From Ralstonia pickettii DTP0602 (GTDB lineage Bacteria; Pseudomonadota; Gammaproteobacteria; Burkholderiales; Burkholderiaceae): a stretch of DNA of 64,000 nucleotides. Location of the stretch: NCBI GenBank assembly GCA_000471925.1, contig CP006668.1, positions 2,604,001 to 2,668,000 of the forward strand, given 5' to 3'. The position numbers and the translations under genes were made by a program. Shown one piece after another: positions 50,980-64,000 of this stretch. Under the pieces are notes generated by a model. The model ran no database searches. It had not been told where the DNA came from and was given only the letters and a program-made list of their open reading frames with translations. Position 1 is the first letter of the stretch, and every line of letters starts with the position of its first letter.

Positions 50980-51006
50980 TAAACCTTTGCCGAGCTCGGT
51001 CGATAA
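50980..51006 (+). promoter_or_regulatory. Sigma-28 (FliA) promoter of fliC
   Basis: TAAA (50980-50983), 15 nt, GTCGATAA (50999-51006). This is the exact spacing of the FliA consensus with one -10 mismatch. A start near 51013 gives a leader of about 90 nt. Confidence 0.85.
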
Positions 51007-51102: not shown

Positions 51103-52341
51103 ATGGCGCAAGTCATTAACACCAACTCGTTGTCTCTGATGACTCAGAACAACCTGAATGCTTCGCAATCGTCGCTGAACACGGCAATCCAGCGCCTGTC
51201 GTCGGGCCTGCGCATCAACAGCGCCAAGGACGACGCCGCCGGCCAGGCCATTGCGAACCGCTTCACCGCCAACATCCGCGGCCTGACGCAAGCCCAGCGC
51301 AACGCCAACGACGGTATCTCGCTGGCTCAGACGACCGAAGGCGCGCTGACCGAAGTCAACAACAACCTGCAACGTATCCGTGAACTGAGCGTGCAGGCTG
51401 CCAACGGTTCGAACTCGGCTTCGGACCTGAAGTCGATCCAGGACGAAATCAAGCAACGCCTGTCGGAAATCGACCGTACCTCGGCCCAGACCGACTTCAA
51501 CGGCGTTAAGGTGCTGTCGTCCGCCGCCAAGCCGCTGACCGTCCAGGTTGGCGCCAACGATTCGGAAACGATCACCATCGACCTGGAAGAAATCAGCTCC
51601 TCGACGCTGAACCTGACCAGCTTTAACGTCAATGGCCCGAAGGCCAAGGGTGCCAACACCTTCAACGGCGCCGCCGTAGCGACCACGGCTGCGCACGCGG
51701 CTGCCGGCGACTTCCAGAAGGTGTTCGGTTCGAGCACCGCGCTGACCACTTCATCCGTTTCCGAAGCTACAGGCGGCACCCTGGCCACCAAGCTGGGTAT
51801 CGCCGGCGGCAGCGTGAACTTTACGAACAGGGCCATCGTTGATGGCAATGACAACTGGTTCGCGGAAGTCCGAATCAGCGCCGGTAGCGCTGCTGAATCC
51901 ACGGCTCTCAAGGCCAGCGGCTTCGACATTGCCACCGGCACGGAGCAGGTTTTCTACATCGGCATCGACGCTGCCAACCCGACGTCGACCGGGGCATCGG
52001 GCACGACCGCCAATTACAGCATCGACACCTCGAAGCTCGACGTGTCGTCCCTGCAGCGCGGTGCGACCAGCAACCCGCTGGCCTCGATCGACGCCGCCCT
52101 GCAAAAGGTGGACGACCTGCGCAGCTCGCTGGGTGCCGTGCAGAACCGCTTTGACTCCGTGATCGCCAACCTGGGCACCACCGTGACCAACCTGTCGGCT
52201 TCGCGTTCGCGCATCCAGGACGCTGACTACGCAACGGAAGTGTCGAACATGACCCGCGCGCAGATCCTGCAACAGGCTGGTACCTCGGTGCTGGCGCAAG
52301 CCAACCAGACCACGCAGAGCGTGCTGTCGCTGCTGCGTTAA
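51103..52341 (+). CDS. fliC: Flagellin
   Basis: 412-residue filament subunit, exported by the flagellar type III system. The conserved D0/D1 ends are present: MAQVINTNSLSLMTQNNLN and RINSAKDDAAGQAIANRFTA at the N-terminus, and MTRAQILQQAGTSVLAQANQ at the C-terminus. The central part (about 185-315) is Ser/Thr/Ala-rich and variable. AGGAG precedes ATG 51103. Surface Ser/Thr residues are possible glycosylation sites, given the glycan operon 5 kb downstream. Confidence 0.97.
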   Translation: MAQVINTNSLSLMTQNNLNASQSSLNTAIQRLSSGLRINSAKDDAAGQAIANRFTANIRGLTQAQRNANDGISLAQTTEGALTEVNNNLQRIRELSVQAANGSNSASDLKSIQDEIKQRLSEIDRTSAQTDFNGVKVLSSAAKPLTVQVGANDSETITIDLEEISSSTLNLTSFNVNGPKAKGANTFNGAAVATTAAHAAAGDFQKVFGSSTALTTSSVSEATGGTLATKLGIAGGSVNFTNRAIVDGNDNWFAEVRISAGSAAESTALKASGFDIATGTEQVFYIGIDAANPTSTGASGTTANYSIDTSKLDVSSLQRGATSNPLASIDAALQKVDDLRSSLGAVQNRFDSVIANLGTTVTNLSASRSRIQDADYATEVSNMTRAQILQQAGTSVLAQANQTTQSVLSLLR

Positions 52342-52477: not shown

Positions 52478-52858
52478 ATGGCGCCTTCCCCGACAGTGAA
52501 CCCGAGCGCAATGCGCCTGCCATCCGATGTGCTGGCGGGCGCGGTCGCTTCCGTGGCCCCGGTGCGTAGCGCCGGCCAGGCCGTTCGCCGGGATGACGCC
52601 GCCGCTCCGGCTACGCTAGCCGCGGACGCCGCCGACACCGTGGAGGCGGGCGCCGCCATCGGCGAACTGGTCGATGCGCTCAAGACTACGTCGATCGCCC
52701 TGCGCTTCGAGATCGACGACACTACGCACCGCGTCATCACCAAGGTGATCGACAGGGAAACCGGCGAACTGATCCGGCAGATGCCCACCGAAGAGGTGCT
52801 GCGCGTCGCCCGCGCCATCGACAAGCTGCAGGGGCTGTTCGTCAGCCAGGCGGCCTGA
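52478..52858 (+). CDS. flaG: Flagellar protein FlaG
   Basis: 126 residues. The C-terminal half is the FlaG domain (LRFEIDDTTHRVITKVIDRE, IRQMPTEEVLRVARAIDKLQ), which is linked to filament length control. The N-terminal 50 residues are Ala-rich and variable. ATG 52478 follows GGAG. Confidence 0.92.
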   Translation: MAPSPTVNPSAMRLPSDVLAGAVASVAPVRSAGQAVRRDDAAAPATLAADAADTVEAGAAIGELVDALKTTSIALRFEIDDTTHRVITKVIDRETGELIRQMPTEEVLRVARAIDKLQGLFVSQAA

Positions 52859-52926
52859 GCCACCCTGGGCCGCAAGCCGGCGCAGCGCACCCGAACAACA
52901 GTTGAAGAAGAAGAGGCACGACAAGC

Positions 52927-54333
52927 ATGGCAACGATCTCCTCCCTCGGCATCGGTTCCAACCTGGACCTGAACACGCTGCTGCAGAACCTGCAGACGGC
53001 TGAGCAGGCGCCGCTCACCGCGATCACCAACCAGGCCAAGAGCTACCAGACCAAGCTGTCGGCCTACAGCCAGGTGCAGAGCGTGCTGTCCGCCTACCAG
53101 GCTGCGGCCAAGAAGCTGTCCGACGCCGCCACCTTCGGCGCGGTCAAGGCCGCCGTGGGCTCGGCCGACGTGATGTCCGTGACGACTGCCGCCAACGCGG
53201 TGCCCGGTAACTACAGTATCACCGTCAACACGCTCGCCACTGCGCAGTCACTGGTCAGCGGCAACGTTGCCGACCAGAAGGCCGCGATCGGCGGCGGCGA
53301 GATCGTGTTCGATTTCGGCGAGGCCCTTGCCACCGGCGGCGCGGCAACCAGCACCAAGAAGGTCACGATCCCGGCCGGGTCCTCGCTCGAAGGCATGCGC
53401 GACGCCATCAACAAGGCCGGCATCGGCGTGACCGCCAGCATCGTCAACGACGGCAGCGCCAGCCCCTACCGCCTGGTGCTGACCTCCGACAAGACCGGCA
53501 CGCAGGCCACCATGCGCGTGTCGTCGACCGATGCGGCACTGAACAACGTGATCGCCTTCGACCCGGCCGCAGCGGCCGGCGTCAACAAGATGGAGCAGAA
53601 GGTGCCGCCGGCCAACGCGACGCTGAAGATCAACGGCATCGACGTGGTCAGCCAGAGCAACACGGTAGTGGACGCGGCCCAGGGCGTGACCATGAACCTG
53701 GCCAAGACCGGCACCACGTCGCTGGTGGTCACGCGCGACAACGAGGCGATCAAGGCCGCCATCCAGGGCTTTGTCACCGCGTACAACAATATCCAGAGCA
53801 CGGCCAAGTCGCTGACCGCCTTCGATACCGACGCAGGCACCTCCGCGGCGCTGACCGGCGACACCACGCTGCGTGCGATCCAGTCGCGCCTGCGCTCGAT
53901 GCTGGGCGGCGCCATGGACGACGGCAATGGCGGCAAGGTCACCCTGATCGACATCGGTGTCACGTTCGAAAAGGACGGCACCATGAAGCTGGACGACACC
54001 AAGCTGACCAAGGCGCTGAATACCAACCTGGGCGGCGTCACGAACATGTTCTCCAGCACCGCGAATGCCGGCGGCCTGGGCAAGCAGGCGAGCGACTATA
54101 TCGATGGCCTGAGCAAGACCGACGGCGCGCTCAAGGCGGCCCAGGACGGCATCACCAAGACGCTGAAGGGCCTGGAGGACAACTATAACCGCGTGGAGGA
54201 TCGCGTCAACGCCACCGTGGAACGCTACAAGGCCCAGTTCACACAGCTGGACTTGCTGGTCGCGCAGATGAACCGCACCAGCAGCTACCTGACGCAGCAG
54301 TTCTCCGCGCTGAACAACACCACGACGAAGTAA
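52927..54333 (+). CDS. fliD: Flagellar hook-associated protein 2 (filament cap)
   Basis: 468 residues. N-terminal FliD_N (ISSLGIGSNLDLNTLLQNLQ) and C-terminal FliD_C with terminal coiled coil (LLVAQMNRTSSYLTQQFSAL). It caps the growing filament and folds exported flagellin. It lies 68 bp after flaG with a GAAGAAGAGG site. Confidence 0.95.
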   Translation: MATISSLGIGSNLDLNTLLQNLQTAEQAPLTAITNQAKSYQTKLSAYSQVQSVLSAYQAAAKKLSDAATFGAVKAAVGSADVMSVTTAANAVPGNYSITVNTLATAQSLVSGNVADQKAAIGGGEIVFDFGEALATGGAATSTKKVTIPAGSSLEGMRDAINKAGIGVTASIVNDGSASPYRLVLTSDKTGTQATMRVSSTDAALNNVIAFDPAAAAGVNKMEQKVPPANATLKINGIDVVSQSNTVVDAAQGVTMNLAKTGTTSLVVTRDNEAIKAAIQGFVTAYNNIQSTAKSLTAFDTDAGTSAALTGDTTLRAIQSRLRSMLGGAMDDGNGGKVTLIDIGVTFEKDGTMKLDDTKLTKALNTNLGGVTNMFSSTANAGGLGKQASDYIDGLSKTDGALKAAQDGITKTLKGLEDNYNRVEDRVNATVERYKAQFTQLDLLVAQMNRTSSYLTQQFSALNNTTTK

Positions 54334-54372
54334 GCGCCCAGCGCAAACACCGCAAGCCAGAGGAAGCCAGCC

Positions 54373-54798
54373 ATGTTCGCCCGCCAAGCCGCAAACGCCT
54401 ACGCCCAGGTGGGCGTCCAGACCGGTGCCATGAGCGCCAGCCCGCACAAGCTGATCGCCATGCTGTACGACGGCGCCCGCGCTGCCATCGCGCGGGCGAA
54501 GTTCCACCTGGAGGGCGGCGACGTGCCGGCGCGCGGCAACGCCATCTCGAAGGCGATCGACATCATCGACAACGGGCTGCGCGCGGTGCTGGACCACGAG
54601 GCCGGCGGCGAGATCTCTGCCAATCTCGAATCCCTCTATGAATACATGGTGCGCCGGCTGATGCTGGCCAACCTGCGCAGCGACGCGGCCCTGCTGGCCG
54701 AGGTCGATGCCCTGCTCGAAAGCCTGGCCTCGGCCTGGGCGCAGATCGATGACACGGCCCAGGGCTCCGACCGGCAGCCCGCCTTACAGGACAACTGA
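54373..54798 (+). CDS. fliS: Flagellar export chaperone FliS
   Basis: 141 residues, helical. The N-terminal motif ANAYAQVGVQTGAMSASPHK and LIAMLYDGA are diagnostic. It binds the flagellin C-terminus in the cytoplasm before export. It ends 1 nt before fliT. Confidence 0.95.
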   Translation: MFARQAANAYAQVGVQTGAMSASPHKLIAMLYDGARAAIARAKFHLEGGDVPARGNAISKAIDIIDNGLRAVLDHEAGGEISANLESLYEYMVRRLMLANLRSDAALLAEVDALLESLASAWAQIDDTAQGSDRQPALQDN

Positions 54799-54799
54799 A

Positions 54800-55141
54800 A
54801 TGGCTTCCCTCCCTGAGTTTTCCCCGATCGTCACCTGCTACGAGGAAATCCTCGCGCTGTCTGCACGCATGCTGGAGGCTGCCCAGGCCGCCGACTGGGA
54901 CCAGGTCACGGAACTCCAGCGCTGCTACCTGGCGCGGGTGGACCGCCTGCGCCAGCTGGACCACGACGCGCCGTTCTCCGACTCGGAGCGCATGCGCCGG
55001 TACCAGCTGCTGGACCGCATCCTGACCTACGATGCCCGCATCCGCGACCTGGCCGTACCGCAGCTGAAGAAGCTTGGCGACATGCTGACCAGCTCGCGCC
55101 GCCAGTTCGAATTGTCCGCCGCTTACGGCGCTACAGCCTGA
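54800..55141 (+). CDS. fliT: Flagellar protein FliT
   Basis: 113-residue helical protein (ILALSARMLEAAQAADWDQV, LDRILTYDARIRDLAVP). FliT is the export chaperone of FliD and in enterics also an FlhDC antagonist. Identification rests on size, helical pattern and position directly after fliS. Confidence 0.85.
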   Translation: MASLPEFSPIVTCYEEILALSARMLEAAQAADWDQVTELQRCYLARVDRLRQLDHDAPFSDSERMRRYQLLDRILTYDARIRDLAVPQLKKLGDMLTSSRRQFELSAAYGATA

Positions 55142-55233
55142 CGATCGCCTGACGACAACGTCAGGCCGACCGCGGCGGGCCACCGGGTCCGTCGCGCGCG
55201 TCTTCCACCCCGCCTGCATTTCCTCCGACCCGT

Positions 55234-56547
55234 ATGACCGGCATCCATCTGCCTCCAGGCCTGGCACCCGGTCAGGCCCCGGACCCGCAACAGCTGCGCA
55301 CGGCGCTGGTGATCGACAAACTCGCCGCGCTCCAGCCCGTGCCCGAGGCCACGGAGTCGAATGTCCAGAACTCCACCGGCCAGGCGATCCGCCACAGCCA
55401 GCAGGCCGCCGGGCCGAACGGCGTACCGGGCCAGGCCGGGCTGCTGCCGGGCACCTCGACGCGGGAATCGCTGAGCGCGGCCGCGCGCGCCATCCTGGCG
55501 GTGATGGACGGCATCGAGGCCCAGCCGGTCCGCCCTGCGGCGCCATTGCTGGGCAGCGCGCCCACGCCGGCCTCCGCGCAAGCGGCGGCCGCGGCGCTGG
55601 CCAATGCGGTGGGCCAGAGCGGGCTCTTCTATGAATCGCACCTGGCGGAGTGGGTCGCCGGCGCGCGCGCATTGCCCGGCATCCGGCAGGAGCCGCAGGC
55701 AAGCGTGCCACGGCCAGCCGCATCGGCTGCGGTGGCCCAGCCACAAGCGCCGGCCGGCAACGCGCCGCCCTCCGCGCTGCTGACCTACAACGGCACCGCG
55801 CCCGGCGCCGAACCGCCCAGGCCTTCGGCACCGCCCCTGATCCCTGCCTCGCAGGTGCTGGCCGAAGCGCTGGCGTCGCCGCGCGATCCGCGCGTGGCGC
55901 ACAGCCATGCGCCCGCCGAACAGGGCGTGCGCCAGGGCGCCGGCTCCACCGCGCCATACAGTCGCGAGGCCGCGGCCGACGCCGCGCCGCCGCGCCCGTC
56001 CGTGGCATCGATGGCAACGCGGGCCTACCAGGCCACCGCCGATGCCGCGCGTGCCCCGGTGCCCGACGCGCTCGCGGCGCATGCGTCGCGCGCCGCCGAT
56101 CCGGGCGATGCCGCTGCCGCCGATGCCGCCAGGCAGTCCGCGCCTGCCGGCCCCGCCATCCATCCCGCCACCGAGGGCGTGGTGCGCCAGCAGCTGGAAC
56201 TGCTGGCCACGCAGCAGTTCCGCTTTGCCGGCGAGGCCTGGCCCGGCGTGCCGATGGCATGGGAGGTTCGCCGCGCCGACTCCGACGCCGGCGGCGCCGC
56301 GCCGGACGATGCCAGCCGGCCGTGGTCGAGCCGCCTGCGGCTGCAACTGCCCAACCTGGGCACGGTCGAGGTGCTGCTGACGCTCGGCCCGTCCGGCCTC
56401 GAAGCGCGCGTGGCCACCGCCGAAACCGATATTGCCGCGCGCTTTATCGCCGCACGTCCGCTGCTGCGCAGCCGGCTGGAAGCGCAAGGCATCCCGTTGC
56501 AGCGCCTGAACGTGCAGACGCAGGACGACGCCGGAGCCAACCCATGA
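55234..56547 (+). CDS. fliK: Flagellar hook-length control protein FliK (C-terminal domain type)
   Basis: 437 residues. Most is Ala/Pro-rich and low in order. The C-terminal 100 residues hold the Flg_hook-type globular domain (RLRLQLPNLGTVEVLLTLG, LEARVATAETDIAARFIAAR, LRSRLEAQGIPLQRLNVQ) that contacts FlhB. The tail AGANP ends 1 nt into an ATGA overlap with the next gene. FliK of this kind often sits beside an flhB-like gene, as here. Confidence 0.85.
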   Translation: MTGIHLPPGLAPGQAPDPQQLRTALVIDKLAALQPVPEATESNVQNSTGQAIRHSQQAAGPNGVPGQAGLLPGTSTRESLSAAARAILAVMDGIEAQPVRPAAPLLGSAPTPASAQAAAAALANAVGQSGLFYESHLAEWVAGARALPGIRQEPQASVPRPAASAAVAQPQAPAGNAPPSALLTYNGTAPGAEPPRPSAPPLIPASQVLAEALASPRDPRVAHSHAPAEQGVRQGAGSTAPYSREAAADAAPPRPSVASMATRAYQATADAARAPVPDALAAHASRAADPGDAAAADAARQSAPAGPAIHPATEGVVRQQLELLATQQFRFAGEAWPGVPMAWEVRRADSDAGGAAPDDASRPWSSRLRLQLPNLGTVEVLLTLGPSGLEARVATAETDIAARFIAARPLLRSRLEAQGIPLQRLNVQTQDDAGANP

Positions 56548-56831
56548 GTGAATCCAGCCAGGACCGCGGCGCGGCCATCGCGCTTACCTACCGGCACAGC
56601 GACAAGGCGCCGCGCGTCGTCGCCAAGGGCTATGGCGTGACCGCCGAGGCCATCATCGCCCGCGCCAGAGAGGCGGGCGTCTATATCCATGATTCACCCA
56701 CGCTGGTCAACCTGCTGATGCAGGTCGACCTGGACAGCAATGTCCCGCCGCAGCTCTATGTGGCGGTGGCCGAGCTGCTGGCGTGGCTGTACGAACTGGA
56801 AAGCGTCACGGCCGACGCGCCGGCGCCATAA
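56544..56831 (+). CDS. FlhB C-terminal-domain-like export protein
   Basis: 95 residues resembling the cytoplasmic domain of FlhB/YscU: ALTYRHSDKAPRVVAKGYGV, EAGVYIHDSPTLVNLLMQVD, and VAVAELLAWLYELE. The NPTH autocleavage motif of FlhB is absent because the protein starts just after that position. Such stand-alone versions are known beside fliK in several proteobacteria. It is coupled to fliK by a 4-nt overlap. Confidence 0.85.
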   Translation: MSESSQDRGAAIALTYRHSDKAPRVVAKGYGVTAEAIIARAREAGVYIHDSPTLVNLLMQVDLDSNVPPQLYVAVAELLAWLYELESVTADAPAP

Positions 56832-57016: not shown

Positions 57017-59269
57017 ATGCCTCGCCATATCCCCGCCGCCGCCCCGCCGCAACGCCTGCTCGACAAGGCGCGCGCAGAATTCCAGGCCGGCGATTTTGCG
57101 GGGGCGATGCGCACCCTTGCGCAGGCGGAGAGCACGGGCATACGCTCCGGCGACCTGCATTTCATCAAGGCGGCGTCGCTGCTGAACCTGGGCCGCATCG
57201 AAGAAGCCCAGCCCGCGGCGGAGCTGGCCGCGCAGCTATACCCGCGGCATGCCCGCGTGCTGGCCCTGCTGGGCCTGATCGAAGTCCAGCGCGCCCAGTA
57301 CAAGCGCGCCGCCAAGGTGTTGAAAATGAGCCTGGATATCGATCCCAAGGGCGACGGCGTGTGGCAGGAGTACGCGTCGGTGCTGTACCGGCTGGCCGAC
57401 TACGAAGGCTCGCGCCAGGCCGGCGCCCGCGCGCTGCAACTGACGCCCGAGGATCCCGCCGCGCTGGGCAACTACGCTTCCGCGATGCGTGAGACGGGCG
57501 AATCGGTGGAGGCCATCCCCTACTTCCGCAAGGCCTGCGCGATCGCACCGGCTCATCGCCACAACCGCACCAACCTGCTGTTCGCATGTCTGTACGACCA
57601 TCGCATCGACGCCGCCCGGATCAAGGCGGAAACGCAGGCCTGGGCCGAAGCACTGGCCAGCCAGTCGCCCGCCGCGGGTGCTCCCTGGCAGGCGCGCCCG
57701 GGCCGGGTGCGCCTGGGCATCTTCTCCAATGACCTGCGCCTGCATGCCTGCGCCTACTTCCTGATCCCGCTGATTGCCAACCTGGACCGCAGCCGCTTCG
57801 AACTGGTGCTGGTGTCGCTGAATCCTTCGCAGGACCGCGTCACCGAGAAGATCCGCCAGTATGCCGACGAGTTCCTCGACGTCTCGCGCCTGGGCGAAGC
57901 CGAGGTCGTGGCGCAGGTGCGCAGCGCCGGGCTCGACGCGCTGATCGACCTCGGCGGCTACGCCGGCGCTTCGCCGCTGACCTATATGGTCCACGAACTG
58001 GCGCCGGTGCAGCTGACCTGGCTTGGCTATCCAGGCACCACCGGCATGAAGCAGATCGGGTATCGCGTCACCGACAGCATCGGCGACCCCGACGGCTGCG
58101 ACGACAACTACACCGAAACGCTGCTGCGCGCGCCGGTGTTCTGCGCCTACCATCCGCTGGTCAGCAACCCGCTGGCCATCTACGAGCCGCGCTACCGCGT
58201 CAATGAGACGCCGGCACTGGCCAACGGCTACATCACCTTTGGCTCCTGCAACGGCATGGCAAAGCTGACGAAACCCACGCTGGACCTCTGGAGCGCGGTG
58301 CTGGCCAACTGCCCCGGCAGCCGCCTGCTGATCGAGGCCAGCGGCCTGGACCAGCCCAGCCTGCGCGAACGCATGGAGCAACGCCTGCGCGCCCACGGCA
58401 TCGACACCTCACGGGTAGAACTGGTAGCGCGCTCCAGCGCAAACCAGTACCTGACCTATCACCGCATCGACATCGCCCTGGACACCACGCCGGTCACCGG
58501 CGGCACTACCACCTGCGACTCGCTGTGGATGGGCGTGCCCGTCGTCTCGCTGGCGGGCGGCATGTTCCACCAGCGCGTGTCGGCGCCATTCCTGCACGCC
58601 ACCGGCCTGGACGAACTGATCTGCGACACCCCGCAACGCTATGTCGAAGTGGCCTGCGCACTGGCCGACGACGTCGAGCAGCTCAATGCACTGCGCCTGT
58701 CGCTGCGCCAGCGCGCCGAACAGAGCGCGATGTGCGATGCCGCCGGCTTCGCGGCGTGGCTGGAAGAACGCCTGGGCGAACTGGTCGCCCCGGCCAAGCC
58801 GGTGCCGCCGCGCGAATTGTCGCCGGCGCAGGGCGTGTATTTCGGCGGCACCTGGCACGGCTACAACGATATCGTGCTGTCGGTGGCGGCCCACCTGCAT
58901 CAGCGTGAATACACGCCGCTGCGCAACCTGCTGGAAAACCTGACCTCGAGCTGGTACCGGCACTGGATGGTCGCCTACGCGCTGGCCATCACCGAATATG
59001 AAAGCGGCGACAAGGCCTATGCCATCGAGCTGCTGGTCGAGGGTATCGGCATGCGCCCCTATGCGCTGCCCCTCTATCGCCTGCTGGCACACTGGCTCGA
59101 TGAGGGCAAACTGGACAAGTCCTCGCTGGCGCAACTGCTGCACGAGCAGTTCGGCCTGATGCTGGAAACGCTGGAAGCGTCGCCGGTGCCATCGGTGTTC
59201 GAGATCCTGGGGATCGAAGTGAAAACGCAGGCCGCGGCGGCACCGGAAGCCGCCGAGGTACCAGTATGA
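57017..59269 (+). CDS. TPR / O-GlcNAc-transferase-like glycosyltransferase
   Basis: 750 residues. TPR repeats occupy about 10-200. A catalytic GT41-type region (about 220-590) shows [40 protein letters not shown] and [21 protein letters not shown] further C-terminal part (about 600-750) is not recognised. Relatives of the SPINDLY type glycosylate proteins on Ser/Thr, and such genes next to fliC often glycosylate flagellin. ATG 57017 follows GGAG by 10 nt. It overlaps rfbF by 4 nt, tying it to sugar synthesis. Confidence 0.88.
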
Positions 59270-60036
59270 AGGCAGTCATCCTCGCCGGCGGCCTCGGCAC
59301 CCGCATCTCGGAAGAGTCGCACCTGCGCCCCAAGCCCATGATCGAGATCGGCGGCAAGCCGATCCTCTGGCACATCATGAAGATGTACTCGGCGCATGGC
59401 GTCAACGAGTTCGTGGTCTGCCTGGGCTACAAGGGCTACGTCATCAAGGAGTACTTCGCCAACTACTTCCTGCACATGTCGGACGTCACCTTCGACATGC
59501 GCGAGAACGGCATGACCGTGCACCAGCGCAAGGCAGAGCCGTGGCGCGTGACGCTGGTCGACACCGGCGAGGACTCCCTGACCGGCGGGCGCCTGCGCCG
59601 CGTGCGCTCCTACCTGACTCCCGGCGAGCCGTTCTGCTTCACCTATGGCGACGGCGTCTCGGACATCGACATCTCCGCCGAGATCGCGTTCCACCGCGCG
59701 CACGGCAAGCGTGCCACCGTAGCCGCGGTACAGCCGCCCGGCCGCTACGGCGCGCTCGAGCGCGACAACGACAAGGTGGTGGGCTTCACCGAGAAGCCGC
59801 GCGGCGACGGCGCCTGGATCAACGGCGGCTTCTTCGTGCTGCATCCCGACGTGATCGACCTGGTCGAGGACGACCACACCAGCTGGGAAGAAGCCCCGAT
59901 GCGCAAGCTCGCGGCCAGCGGGCAGATGGTGGCGTTCGAGCACCGCGGCTTCTGGCAGCCGATGGATACGCTGCGCGAGAAGAACCTGCTGGAAGACCTG
60001 TGGCAATCCGGCGCCGCGCCGTGGAAGACATGGTGA
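59266..60036 (+). CDS. rfbF: Glucose-1-phosphate cytidylyltransferase
   Basis: 256 residues. It makes CDP-glucose from CTP and glucose-1-phosphate. The nucleotidyltransferase start [35 protein letters not shown] and the RfbF-specific [13 protein letters not shown] and [14 protein letters not shown] are all present. ATGA overlap with the glycosyltransferase gene upstream. Confidence 0.94.
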
Positions 60037-61115
60037 TCGACCCGCGTTCCGGGCTCCCGGGGAGTTTTGGCTGCTATCGCGGTCTGAGCGTCTTCGTGAC
60101 CGGCCACACCGGCTTCAAGGGCGCATGGCTCGCGTTGCTGCTGGCGCGCCTGGGGGCAAAGGTCAGCGGTTACGCGCTGGCGCCAGCGACCAACCCCAGC
60201 CTGTTCGCGCTGGCCGGCGTGGGCGACACCATGGTCGCGCACACCGTCGGCGATATCCGCGACACCGTGTCGCTGCGCGCCGCGATGCGCGCGGCCCGGC
60301 CCGAACTGGTGCTGCACCTGGCGGCGCAGCCGCTGGTGCGGGCCAGCTATCGGGATCCGCTTGCGACCTGGTCCACCAACGTGGTCGGCACCGCCAACGT
60401 GCTCGACGCCGTGCGCGATTGCGATACCGTGCGCGCGGCGGTGGTCGTCACCACCGACAAGTGCTACGAGAACAAGGAATGGCCGTGGGGCTACCGCGAG
60501 ACCGATGCGCTCGGCGGTCATGATCCCTACAGCGCCAGCAAGGCCGCGGCCGAGTTGGTGGCGGCCAGCTACCGCCAGTCCTTCCTTGCCGGGCGCGGCG
60601 TGCTTCTGGCCACCGCGCGCGCCGGCAACGTGATCGGCGGCGGCGACTGGTCCGCCGACCGGCTGATCCCCGACGCCGCACGCGCCGCGGTCGCCGGCGC
60701 CACCCTGCAGATCCGGCATCCGGACGCCACGCGCCCCTGGCAACACGTGCTGGAGGCGCTCTACGGCTACCTGTTGCTGTCATCGCGGCTGGTGGCGGGC
60801 GAGCAGGACTTTGCCACCGCCTTCAATTTCGGGCCAGACAGTGCGGACAATGTCTCGGTGGGCACGGTGCTGTCCGGCCTGCAGCAGCACTGGCCGGAAC
60901 TGCATTGGATGCCCCAGCCGCAAGTCAATGGCCCGCACGAAGCGGGCCTGCTGCTGCTGGACTGCGCCCGCGCGCGCCAGATGCTGGCGTGGCGCCCGCG
61001 CTGGCGCCTGGAACAGGCGCTGGCCGAAACCGCCGACTGGTATCGCCGCGTGCTGCGCGAGCCCGGCCAGGCCCGCGCCATCACCGAACAACAGATCGAG
61101 GCGTTCTGCGCCTGA
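60030..61115 (+). CDS. rfbG: CDP-glucose 4,6-dehydratase
   Basis: 361 residues, extended SDR. NAD motif [12 protein letters not shown] (GxxGxxG), substrate region [15 protein letters not shown], catalytic [12 protein letters not shown] and YSASKAAAE. It converts CDP-glucose to CDP-4-keto-6-deoxyglucose. Starts inside the rfbF stop (ATGGTGA overlap). Confidence 0.94.
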
Positions 61116-61138
61116 CCCGCACCGCAACCTGACGCCGC

Positions 61139-62389
61139 ATGAACCCCGACCTCGCGATCCAACCGGCCTGCCGCGCCTGCGGCGCGCCGCTCGAACAGAC
61201 TGTGGTGGATCTCGGCCTGTCGCCGATCTCCAATGCCTTTATCCGCCCCGAGCATGCCGCTCAGGGCGAGACCTTCTATCCGCTGCACGCCATGGTCTGC
61301 GGCCAGTGCTGGCTGGTGCAGCTGCGCGACGCCACGCCGGCGGCGGCGCACTTCCATGACGACTACGTCTACTTCTCGTCGTATTCGACGTCCTGGCTGG
61401 CGCATGCGCGGCGCTATGTCAGCGCGATGCGCGAGCGCTTTGCGCTGGGCCCGCACAGCCGCGTGATGGAGATCGCCAGTAACGACGGCTACCTGCTGCA
61501 GTACTTCGTGCAGGCCGGCGTGCCGTGCCTGGGAATCGAGCCAACGGCGAATACCGCAGCAGCGGCGCGCGACAAGGGCGTGCAGACGCGCGAAGTGTTC
61601 TTCGGCGCCGACAGCGCGCGCGCACTCGCCGCCGACGGCTGGCAGGTTGACCTGCTGCTGGGCAACAATGTGCTGGCGCATGTGCCGGACATCAACGACT
61701 TCGTCGCCGGCATGCCGGTGGTGCTCAAGCCCGAAGGGGTGGTCACGCTGGAATTCCCGCACCTGCTGCGGCTGCTGGACGAGAACCAGTTCGATACGCT
61801 GTATCACGAGCACTATTCCTACCTGTCGCTGACCGCGCTGATGCCGGTGCTGGCACACGCCGGCCTGCGCGCTTTCGACATCGAACACCTGAGCACGCAC
61901 GGCGGCAGCCTGCGCCTGTACGCCTGCCAGATCGGCGCGAGCCACGCAGTCACGGCCGCGGTGCAGGCCTGTCTCGACGAAGAGAAGGCTACCGGGCTGG
62001 CTTCGACAGCCCGCTATGCAGCCTTTGCCGAACGCGTGCGCCAGGCCAAGCGCGACCTGCTGGGTTTCCTGATCGATGCCAGGCGCGCCGGCAAGCGCGT
62101 TGCCGCGTATGGTGCAGCCGCCAAGGGCAACACCCTGCTGAACTACTGCGGCGCGGGGGCCGACCTGGTCGATTTCGTGGTGGACCGCAACCCGGCCAAG
62201 CAGGGCAAGCTGCTGCCGGGCACGCGCATCCCGGTGCTGGCGCCCGAGGCCATTGACGAGCGCCGGCCCGACTACCTGCTGATCCTGCCTTGGAATATCC
62301 GCGACGAGATCATGCAGCAGATGGCCGGGATCCGTAGCTGGGGCGGCCGGTTCGTCACCGCCATTCCGCAGACGGTGGTCCATCCATGA
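61139..62389 (+). CDS. Sugar C-methyltransferase (TylC3/NovU type)
   Basis: 416 residues. N-terminal zinc-finger-like CRACG...CGQC (residues 11-14 and 57-60), a SAM-binding domain with MEIASNDGYLLQYF, and a C-terminal Methyltransf_14-type domain (RVAAYGAAAKGNTLLNYCG). This layout belongs to enzymes that C-methylate NDP-4-keto-6-deoxysugars, often at C3. With RfbF and RfbG upstream, the substrate is predicted to be a CDP-4-keto-6-deoxyhexose. It overlaps the epimerase gene by 4 nt. Confidence 0.88.
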   Translation: MNPDLAIQPACRACGAPLEQTVVDLGLSPISNAFIRPEHAAQGETFYPLHAMVCGQCWLVQLRDATPAAAHFHDDYVYFSSYSTSWLAHARRYVSAMRERFALGPHSRVMEIASNDGYLLQYFVQAGVPCLGIEPTANTAAAARDKGVQTREVFFGADSARALAADGWQVDLLLGNNVLAHVPDINDFVAGMPVVLKPEGVVTLEFPHLLRLLDENQFDTLYHEHYSYLSLTALMPVLAHAGLRAFDIEHLSTHGGSLRLYACQIGASHAVTAAVQACLDEEKATGLASTARYAAFAERVRQAKRDLLGFLIDARRAGKRVAAYGAAAKGNTLLNYCGAGADLVDFVVDRNPAKQGKLLPGTRIPVLAPEAIDERRPDYLLILPWNIRDEIMQQMAGIRSWGGRFVTAIPQTVVHP

Positions 62390-62940
62390 TCTTCACGCCG
62401 ACCCGCATCGACGGCGCCTGGCTGGTCGACCCCGAGCCGCTGCACGACGAGCGCGGCTTCTTTGCCCGCACCGTCTGCACCGACGCATTCGCCCGGCACG
62501 GCTTGGACGCGTGCTTCGTGCAGCAGAGCGTCTCGCGCAACACGCGCGCGGGGATCCTGCGCGGCATGCATTTCCAGGCCGGCGCCGCCGCCGAGGACAA
62601 GCTGGTGCGCGTGACCACCGGCGCCATCCATGACGTGATCGTCGACCTGCGCCGCGATTCGCCGAGCTACCTGCAATGGCAGGCTTTCGAGCTGTCGGCG
62701 CAGTCGCAGCGCGCCGTCTATATCCCCAAAGGCGTGGCCCACGGCTTCCAGACGCTGACCGCGCTGTCGGAGGTGTATTACCAGATGACGGTGCCCTTCG
62801 ATCCGCACAGCAGCCGCGGCCTGCGCTGGAACGACCCCGATATCGGCCTTGCCTGGCCGGACTGCGAGCACCGGCTGATCTCGCCCAAGGATCTCGCGCT
62901 GCCGACGCTGGCCGAGTTGGACGAGCAGGCGCAGCGTTGA
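62386..62940 (+). CDS. RmlC-like NDP-sugar 3,5-epimerase, Tyr replaced
   Basis: 184-residue cupin. The catalytic base is in LRGMHFQAG (RmlC: RGLHYQ), with PKGVAHGFQTL and the C-terminal LRWNDPDIGLAWP. At the place of the catalytic Tyr in the usual YxxP motif this protein has Phe (MTVPFDPHSSRG). It may therefore be a 3-epimerase only, or act differently. Coupled to the C-methyltransferase gene by ATGA. Confidence 0.88.
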   Translation: MIFTPTRIDGAWLVDPEPLHDERGFFARTVCTDAFARHGLDACFVQQSVSRNTRAGILRGMHFQAGAAAEDKLVRVTTGAIHDVIVDLRRDSPSYLQWQAFELSAQSQRAVYIPKGVAHGFQTLTALSEVYYQMTVPFDPHSSRGLRWNDPDIGLAWPDCEHRLISPKDLALPTLAELDEQAQR

Positions 62941-62975
62941 TTCCACCTTCTACCGAACCTATCCGCCGAGACACC

Positions 62976-64000
62976 ATGAGCACCGAAGCATTCCAGAAGT
63001 TGTCCGCCGCGCTGCAGGCAGTCGCCAGCAACGCCACCGCCCGCGACAAGGTCATCGCGCTGTGCAAGGCCATCGAGCAGGACTTCGGCGGCTATGCCGG
63101 CAGCGTGCGCGATGACATCACCGGCCCGATCGTGGACGCGCTGCACACCGAGGCCACGCGCCTGCGCAAGACGCTGGCCGACGGCACCGTGTTCGAGTTC
63201 CTGTACCGCACCAAGATCGCCCGCGACTTCCTGATGAGCACGCCGGAACAGCCGGACCACGTGTGGGAGCCGCAGACCACCAAGCTGCTGCTGGCACTGT
63301 CCGCGCAGGGCGGCCACGCGGTAGTGGGCGGCGCCTACTTCGGCGACCAGGTGGTGCTGATGGCGCGCCGGCTGGCGCAGGCCGGCGGCACCTGCCATGC
63401 GTTCGAGCCGAATCCCGACCAGCTGAGCATGCTGCGACGCAATGCCGAGCTGAACGCGGTCGGCAATATCCGGAGCTGGCGCCTGGGGCTGTGGTCCGAC
63501 AGCACCTCGCAGCTGCGGCTGGTGGGCCACGACTCGTTCGCGCATGCCGAACGCGCCGAGGCGGGGGCAGAAGTTGACGAAAACTCGTCCAGCTTCGCCA
63601 CCATCACCGTCGACGACTACTGCGCGCAGCAAGGCATCGACAAGCTCAGCCTGATCATGCTGGATATCGAAGGCGCCGAGCTCAACGTGTTCCGCGGCGC
63701 CACGAGGCAGCTGGCGCGCCCGGCCGGCGAGGCGCCCAACCTGGTATTCGAGGTGCATCGCCACTACGTCGACTGGAGCCAGGGGCTGCAGAATGCCGAA
63801 ATCGTGCGCGAACTGGCGCGCTACGGTTACCACGTGTATGCGGTGCGCGACTTCAATTCGAATGTCGACATGCAGGGCCGGCCGATCGAGCTGGTGCCGG
63901 TCGACAACATCTACCTCGATGGCCCGCCGCATGGTTTCAACATGGTGGCGGTCAAGGACCCCGCCATCCTGCGCTCGGCGGATTTCGCGCTGTGCCCCGG
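62976..64000 (+). CDS. FkbM-family methyltransferase (partial, runs off the window)
   Basis: At least 341 residues, open at the window end. After a helical N-terminus of about 95 residues come VGGAYFGDQVVLMARRLAQ, HAFEPNPDQLSMLRRNAELN and LIMLDIEGAELNVFRGA, the SAM-binding and FkbM motifs. FkbM enzymes often O-methylate sugars, so it may finish the glycan made by the upstream genes. ATG 62976 is 35 bp after the epimerase gene. Confidence 0.85.
   Translation, partial: MSTEAFQKLSAALQAVASNATARDKVIALCKAIEQDFGGYAGSVRDDITGPIVDALHTEATRLRKTLADGTVFEFLYRTKIARDFLMSTPEQPDHVWEPQTTKLLLALSAQGGHAVVGGAYFGDQVVLMARRLAQAGGTCHAFEPNPDQLSMLRRNAELNAVGNIRSWRLGLWSDSTSQLRLVGHDSFAHAERAEAGAEVDENSSSFATITVDDYCAQQGIDKLSLIMLDIEGAELNVFRGATRQLARPAGEAPNLVFEVHRHYVDWSQGLQNAEIVRELARYGYHVYAVRDFNSNVDMQGRPIELVPVDNIYLDGPPHGFNMVAVKDPAILRSADFALCP

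Follow-up and report, generated by a model that had tools for sequence, protein, structure and literature searches.

The known glycosyltransferases of family GT41 use UDP-GlcNAc or GDP-fucose, the latter being the 6-deoxy-L-hexose donor of SPINDLY, and to our knowledge a cytidine diphosphate (CDP) sugar donor would be new to the family. CDP-vinelose, which we take to carry a 6-deoxy-3-C-methyl-2-O-methyl-L-sugar and to occur also as a methoxyacetyl ester, was reportedly isolated from Azotobacter vinelandii by Okuda and colleagues in the 1960s; we know of no use described since for this orphan cytidine sugar. In Listeria, flagellin is presumably glycosylated by GmaR, which we take to be the O-GlcNAc transferase of that organism, and the N-terminal part of FlmG of Caulobacter crescentus is presumably a TPR domain. 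In one report, FlmG joins an N-terminal flagellin-binding domain to a C-terminal transferase domain and works with pseudaminic acid, and the same paper cites, by title, a Listeria O-GlcNAc transferase that governs motility (PMC7591256). Here we analyse a 64,000-nucleotide stretch (the window; G000:C2:2604001-2668000) of an 8.13-Mb, three-contig Cupriavidus genome, in which an eight-gene block on the plus strand sits in a flagellar operon, with fliK and a gene resembling the C-terminal part of FlhB upstream and fliE and fliF downstream. The gene content suggests that the product of this island is probably a CDP-sugar of the vinelose type, which it would transfer to flagellin.

The first gene (57017..59269, alternative start 56984) encodes a TPR and GT41 transferase, hereafter OGT, which is the proposed flagellin glycosyltransferase (Glyco_transf_41, 128 bits, cut-off 25). 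It is followed by RfbF, a glucose-1-phosphate cytidylyltransferase (59266..60036; TIGR02623, 466 bits, cut-off 300), RfbG, a CDP-glucose 4,6-dehydratase (60030..61115; TIGR02622, 478 bits, cut-off 278), a C-methyltransferase (61139..62389; Methyltransf_14 (PF08484), 221 bits, with Methyltransf_13 also matched), an RmlC-like epimerase (62386..62940; TIGR01221, 174 bits, cut-off 156), and an FkbM-family methyltransferase, the proposed sugar O-methyltransferase (62976..64058, the last 58 bases beyond the window; PF05050, 61.5 bits; TIGR01444, 69 bits). Two further genes on the same strand lie outside the window, in excerpt L003, whose positions plus 54000 give window positions: an SDR reductase (L003:10071-10880; PF01370, 68 bits) and a hexapeptide-like acyltransferase (L003:10871-11524; Hexapep 16.9 bits, below the cut-off of 27). 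A first-pass annotation had named the first five as a tightly joined operon; all five are confirmed on the plus strand with strong family scores, and their junctions are indeed tight (a 4-nt overlap, a 7-nt overlap, a 23-nt gap and a 4-nt overlap). The gene list was incomplete, because the window stops inside the FkbM gene: three more genes run 1.5 kb past its end, and their junctions are gaps of 35 and 12 nt and an overlap of 10 nt.

Synthesis of CDP-4-keto-6-deoxy-D-glucose is established chemistry of the RfbF and RfbG families, and RfbF and RfbG would thus make this intermediate here. The C-methyltransferase would add a methyl group at C-3, the RmlC-like enzyme would invert C-5 to give the L series, the SDR would reduce C-4, the FkbM enzyme would methylate a hydroxyl (C-2 is proposed), and the last gene product would acylate another hydroxyl (C-4 is proposed), yielding a CDP-vinelose-type donor. 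OGT would then O-glycosylate flagellin serine or threonine residues directly from the CDP-sugar, in the cytoplasm and before export. Family-level assignment gives good support to the route from RfbF up to the C-methyltransferase, and for the later steps we infer the order and the positions of modification. The first-pass annotation had likened the route to those for branched sugars such as virenose-type residues. Its branched, C-methylated character is retained, but the presence of SDR, FkbM and acyltransferase genes, hence a longer route with a 4-ketoreductase, an O-methyltransferase and a probable acyltransferase, fits a vinelose-type sugar better.

RfbG carries TDK at residues 142-144 and Yx3K at residues 167-171 (YSASK), matching the [ST]DK and Yx3K motif published for CDP-glucose 4,6-dehydratases (PMC8987622, Table 1). 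It is the only close match to such enzymes in the genome, the next best having 29% identity and 39 bits, and the C-methyltransferase is the only PF08484 match in the genome. Among solved structures, the C-methyltransferase is nearest to the D-mycarose 3-C-methyltransferase 4rv9, presumably MtmC (286 bits), followed by the sugar 3-C-methyltransferase 5t64, presumably KijD1 (263 bits), and TcaB9 (245 bits). It has Y76, H181, Y222, E224 and H225, with the same numbering as the catalytic set of TcaB9; this Tyr/His/Glu set and a three-domain sequence match place it with the TylC3/MtmC-type enzymes. In the RmlC-like protein, His62, Tyr132 and Asp169, which we take to be its functional residues, are in place, and since C-3 would be quaternary after methylation, this enzyme could epimerise only C-5. 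The SDR carries GxxGxxG and Yx3K and has no close relative among solved structures (best 34 bits), and the FkbM methyltransferase has no match among them. DegT has no match among the eight genes; a 3,6-dideoxyhexose product was considered and rejected, there being no RfbH-type 3-dehydrase gene in the cassette. The closest named proteins are P0121 of Cupriavidus necator for OGT (92%) and a Cupriavidus taiwanensis protein for the C-methyltransferase (83%). Relatives of the C-methyltransferase (55%) and the SDR (40%) also lie about 9-10 kb apart on the Sinorhizobium meliloti 1021 megaplasmid NC_003078.1, perhaps with a role in surface polysaccharide.

OGT combines TPRs with the GT-B fold of the GT41 (OGT/SPINDLY) family. 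Residues H243, K416, T498 and D501, presumably equivalent to human H498, K842 and the TTxxD motif, are invariant in 46 sequences and lie inside the stretch aligned with SPINDLY, its nearest relative in fold, whose GDP-fucose complex is among the matched entries. OGT is the sole glycosyltransferase of the cassette, and a CDP-sugar donor is predicted for it from its gene partnership. An apparent OGT-RfbF fusion, P0167, has a low-complexity, seemingly frameshifted middle and was set aside as a sequencing artefact.

That partnership was surveyed in 60 Cupriavidus genomes, with an OGT orthologue defined by at least 44% identity. The C-methyltransferase is present in 27, RfbG in 32 and an OGT orthologue in 28, and all 28 genomes with OGT also have RfbG (Fisher p 3.6e-13, although the species are related and this is not a clean probability). 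A dedicated transferase thus accompanies its nucleotide-sugar pathway throughout, and all 28 pairs lie in the flagellar locus, 27 by gene-context reading and one (G010) by a 6.5-kb distance to fliG. The four genomes with RfbG and without OGT (G014, G028, G032 and G042) are the four in which RfbG was not seen linked to flagellar genes: in G014 no flagellar match was seen within about 30 kb, the G032 copy sits on a contig of 9.2 kb, and in G028 and G042 RfbG and fliG are on separate contigs and the slot is empty (L169 and L166). The C-methyltransferase lies within 10 kb of flagellar genes in 25 of its 27 carriers, counting the window's own genome (24 of 26 others, the misses being G032 and G014). 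Among the 33 genomes without it, the slot was read in 20; in 18 of these fliF comes after fliK and no cassette gene was detected, and the remaining two (L174 and L175) have OGT, RfbF and RfbG with other genes in the slot.

Across 399 genomes of the order, the C-methyltransferase was matched in 50, three of which are Cupriavidus, and 40 of the 47 other loci were read, eight of them on contigs shorter than 13 kb. Flagellin lies within 10 kb at five loci (L176, L200, L205, L207 and L210), and both loci that were widened (G267 and G413) show flagellin genes farther out, so that seven are linked in total; the other 33, read at their original width, were not seen beside flagellar genes. The C-methyltransferase is therefore not a flagellar gene in general; in Cupriavidus it is strongly linked to flagellar genes, and such a link recurs elsewhere. 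One locus from another family (L187) repeats the full eight-gene order, with RfbF 73% identical, OGT 35-39% identical and the other six products (RfbG, C-methyltransferase, RmlC, FkbM, SDR and acyltransferase) 55-59% identical to those of the window, and has no flagellar gene on its 12.8-kb contig. These 33 loci would suit a CDP-sugar destined for lipopolysaccharide or another polysaccharide, with an incidental location in the flagellar operon, as would the fact that several CDP-sugars are lipopolysaccharide precursors (PMC8987622). We nevertheless regard a polysaccharide destination as very improbable, given the flagellar linkage of 25 of 27 Cupriavidus carriers, OGT orthologues that across 60 genomes are always accompanied by rfbG, a slot that holds two separate cassette types, and eight genes that include no flippase, polymerase or lipid-linked transferase and offer the TPR-GT41 enzyme as the only transferase. 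Of the first-pass reading, we find support for a flagellum-dedicated CDP-(3-C-methyl)-6-deoxyhexose pathway in which the OGT-like enzyme is the likely transferase.

The flagellar slot holds several forms of the cassette. Type A, the form in the window, is oriented with the operon, and type B (L148-L151, L153 and L155) lies there in the opposite orientation, in the order OGT-RfbF-RfbG-RmlC-C-methyltransferase, followed in L148 by WbqC, methyltransferase, ATP-grasp, phosphoesterase and PhyH genes. L142 has a DegT aminotransferase and a GNAT gene at the positions of SDR and FkbM in type A, which predicts an acylamino sugar; L147 likewise lacks SDR and FkbM matches in the context comparison. The L174 slot has RmlC, DegT and SDR and no C-methyltransferase, and in L146/L222 the gene set is split, on both sides of fliC. 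A tree of 69 C-methyltransferases puts type A and type B into different clades, both well supported, and the flagellar-linked label changes eight times, seven of them forced by well-supported branches, a count that is approximate because short-contig rows were scored as unlinked. With empty and several filled forms at one position, the slot offers a natural experiment in exchange of the flagellar sugar coat, and the constancy of OGT-RfbF-RfbG against variable tailoring genes is the strongest sign that OGT itself takes CDP-6-deoxy sugars. Relatives of the last gene, the hexapeptide-like acyltransferase (40-63%), also occur near flagellar genes without a type A set in L207, L210, L150, L153 and L155, so this gene may go with the flagellar slot and not with any single sugar pathway.

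Tandem OGTs in L143, L144, L145 and L147, and a GT2 domain on both Azotobacter OGTs described below, make two successive transfers conceivable, in which OGT would put a common sugar such as GlcNAc on flagellin and the CDP-sugar would be added on top; alternatively, FliC might not be the target, which could instead be FliD or some other component of the flagellum. We consider these schemes unlikely, as the cassette of the window has one transferase only and OGT orthologues track rfbG through the slot variants.

Four Azotobacter genomes were reached with NifH as bait, one of which (G004) has a NifH 100% identical to that of A. vinelandii and is taken as this species, the other three being 96-97% identical. 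The C-methyltransferase is present in two (G002 and G004) at 54-55% identity to that of the window. In G004, fliC and a TPR-GT41-GT2 protein are followed by an opposite-strand cassette of RfbF, RfbG, RmlC-like, C-methyltransferase, hexapeptide acyltransferase and SDR genes (the SDR 42% identical to that of the window). Three tail genes come next, the first of rhamnosyl-O-methyltransferase type (RMNT_CmcI, 312 bits), the second for a PhyH dioxygenase and the third for a TylF-type methyltransferase; past them are a UDP-glucose dehydrogenase-like gene and flaG, and fliD was not recognised near this flaG. G002 has the same arrangement (flaG, UDP-glucose dehydrogenase-like, RfbF, RfbG, RmlC-like, C-methyltransferase, OGT-GT2, fliC), but its tail differs. 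Just upstream of G004 fliC is a HigB-like toxin-antitoxin gene (Pfam, 69 bits; L096:1316-1636). On the strength of the NifH match, the reported producer of CDP-vinelose carries the cassette, and we infer that acetyl transfer, PhyH hydroxylation and O-methylation in G004 would give exactly the methoxyacetyl ester of CDP-vinelose. A. vinelandii would then follow the same logic as Cupriavidus with its own tailoring genes, and CDP-vinelose would gain a function. In the open-licence literature, we found no mention of vinelose and no branched-chain cytidine sugar of Azotobacter, and the titles and abstract openings of the papers matched make no link of CDP- or C-methyl sugars to flagellin glycosylation in Cupriavidus or Azotobacter.

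We give about an even chance to the broader proposal that flagellin is O-glycosylated from CDP-vinelose in Azotobacter, and from a sister form of it in Cupriavidus, by GT41 enzymes taking 6-deoxy sugars activated with cytidine, and that the Cupriavidus slot between fliK and fliE is an exchange site where swaps of the tailoring genes around a constant OGT-RfbF-RfbG alter the sugar of the flagellum. The identity of the Cupriavidus sugar has a competitor of its own, namely another C-methylated 6-deoxy sugar on flagellin, virenose-type or lacking the O-methyl or acyl group, with a loose match to vinelose. The tailoring genes vary in the genus (DegT and GNAT in L142; WbqC, ATP-grasp, PhyH and others in L148), the positions of O-methylation and acylation are not readable from sequence, and the acyltransferase match is weak, but the cassette of the window has every class for a vinelose-type sugar and no extra one, and the Azotobacter classes match; we hold this competitor to be a real possibility, somewhat short of even odds. 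The cassette has the classes for CDP-4-keto-6-deoxyglucose formation, C-methylation, epimerisation and 4-reduction, and, as candidates for 2-O-methylation and acylation, the FkbM methyltransferase and the sub-threshold acyltransferase.

Several observations weigh against a vinelose-type flagellin glycan. Both the glycan and the CDP-sugar are predicted from genes alone; the last gene is a weak acyltransferase candidate (EpsC, 48 bits, cut-off 150, in addition to its low Hexapep score); no sigma28-like site was found ahead of OGT in the promoter scan of the window; flagellin serine and threonine content, compared by eye, shows no clear difference between carriers and non-carriers; distant GT41 genes (31-34%) occur in three Cupriavidus genomes that have no rfbG; and the 33 order-level loci described above count here as well. 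In Azotobacter, the C-methyltransferase was not found in two of the four genomes, and the final sugars of the two genera may differ, because their O-methyltransferases belong to different families and their C-methyltransferases are 55% identical.

Two of the distant GT41 genes (G017:C1:280291-281700 and G039:C1:1281042-1282313; 33-34% to OGT) lie about 5 kb from fliG in genomes where RfbG has no match, a hint that flagellin may be glycosylated there from a different donor. The fliG match in G039 (G039:C1:1287274-1288272) contains one TGA, which may reflect a shorter C-terminus or a broken gene.

Upstream of the island, the late flagellar genes that the first-pass annotation had placed there were recovered with Pfam on the plus strand: fliC, the proposed acceptor (51103..52341; Flagellin_N, 145 bits; Flagellin_C, 100 bits), followed by flaG, fliD, fliS, fliT, fliK and the FlhB C-terminal-like gene (52478..56831). 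Ahead of fliC is a sigma28-like site at 50980-51006 (a promoter-like match with three mismatches), one of two such matches in the window where 0.07 are expected; the second is inside fliC on the minus strand. Scans for sigma70 promoters and terminators gave chance level only. Past the cassette, fliE is on the opposite strand (recognised by eye from its sequence), followed by fliF and fliG (profile matches). A second flagellin gene (G000:C2:273060-273455, L002) lies on the same contig, 2.4 Mb from the island.

If the proposed vinelose-type route holds, CDP-vinelose would gain a biological role and a gene set, cytidine diphosphate sugars would join the donors of the OGT family, and the island would be a compact enzyme source for branched deoxysugars on protein, with predicted residue masses (174.09 for a vinelose-type residue, 216.10 with an added acetyl and, for A. 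vinelandii, 246.11 with an added methoxyacetyl group) that make its sugar directly testable. The predicted product would share with CDP-vinelose the cytidine carrier, the 6-deoxy, 3-C-methyl and 2-O-methyl features, the L series and acylation, with one candidate enzyme class for each in the cassette; the Azotobacter O-methyltransferase is, however, of another family, its acyltransferase is not recognisably related, and its PhyH and TylF-type genes are absent from the cassette of the window. Compared with the 3-C-methyltransferases MtmC, TcaB9 and KijD1, the C-methyltransferase has the same family and catalytic residues, whereas those enzymes act on dTDP-sugars for antibiotics and this one is predicted to act on CDP-4-keto-6-deoxyglucose. 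RfbF and RfbG are common to the CDP-3,6-dideoxyhexose pathways of O-antigens, while the eight genes would provide C-methylation instead of C-3 deoxygenation and include no RfbH-type dehydrase. OGT differs from SPINDLY and from bacterial and human OGT by an extra C-terminal helical part (residues 616-730) and, where known GT41 members use UDP-GlcNAc or GDP-fucose, by its predicted CDP-sugar donor. Attachment of such a sugar to flagellin by an OGT-like enzyme had been put forward as novel; an OGT-like enzyme acting on flagellin is not new by itself, as a modular flagellin transferase is already known in FlmG, and what is new here is the predicted CDP-sugar donor, together with its branched sugar and the role for CDP-vinelose. 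FlmG is likewise modular and soluble, acts on flagellin, and depends on a sugar pathway that is needed for flagellation, but it uses pseudaminic acid (PMC7591256), whereas for OGT we predict a donor of the CDP-6-deoxy type that bears a C-methyl branch.

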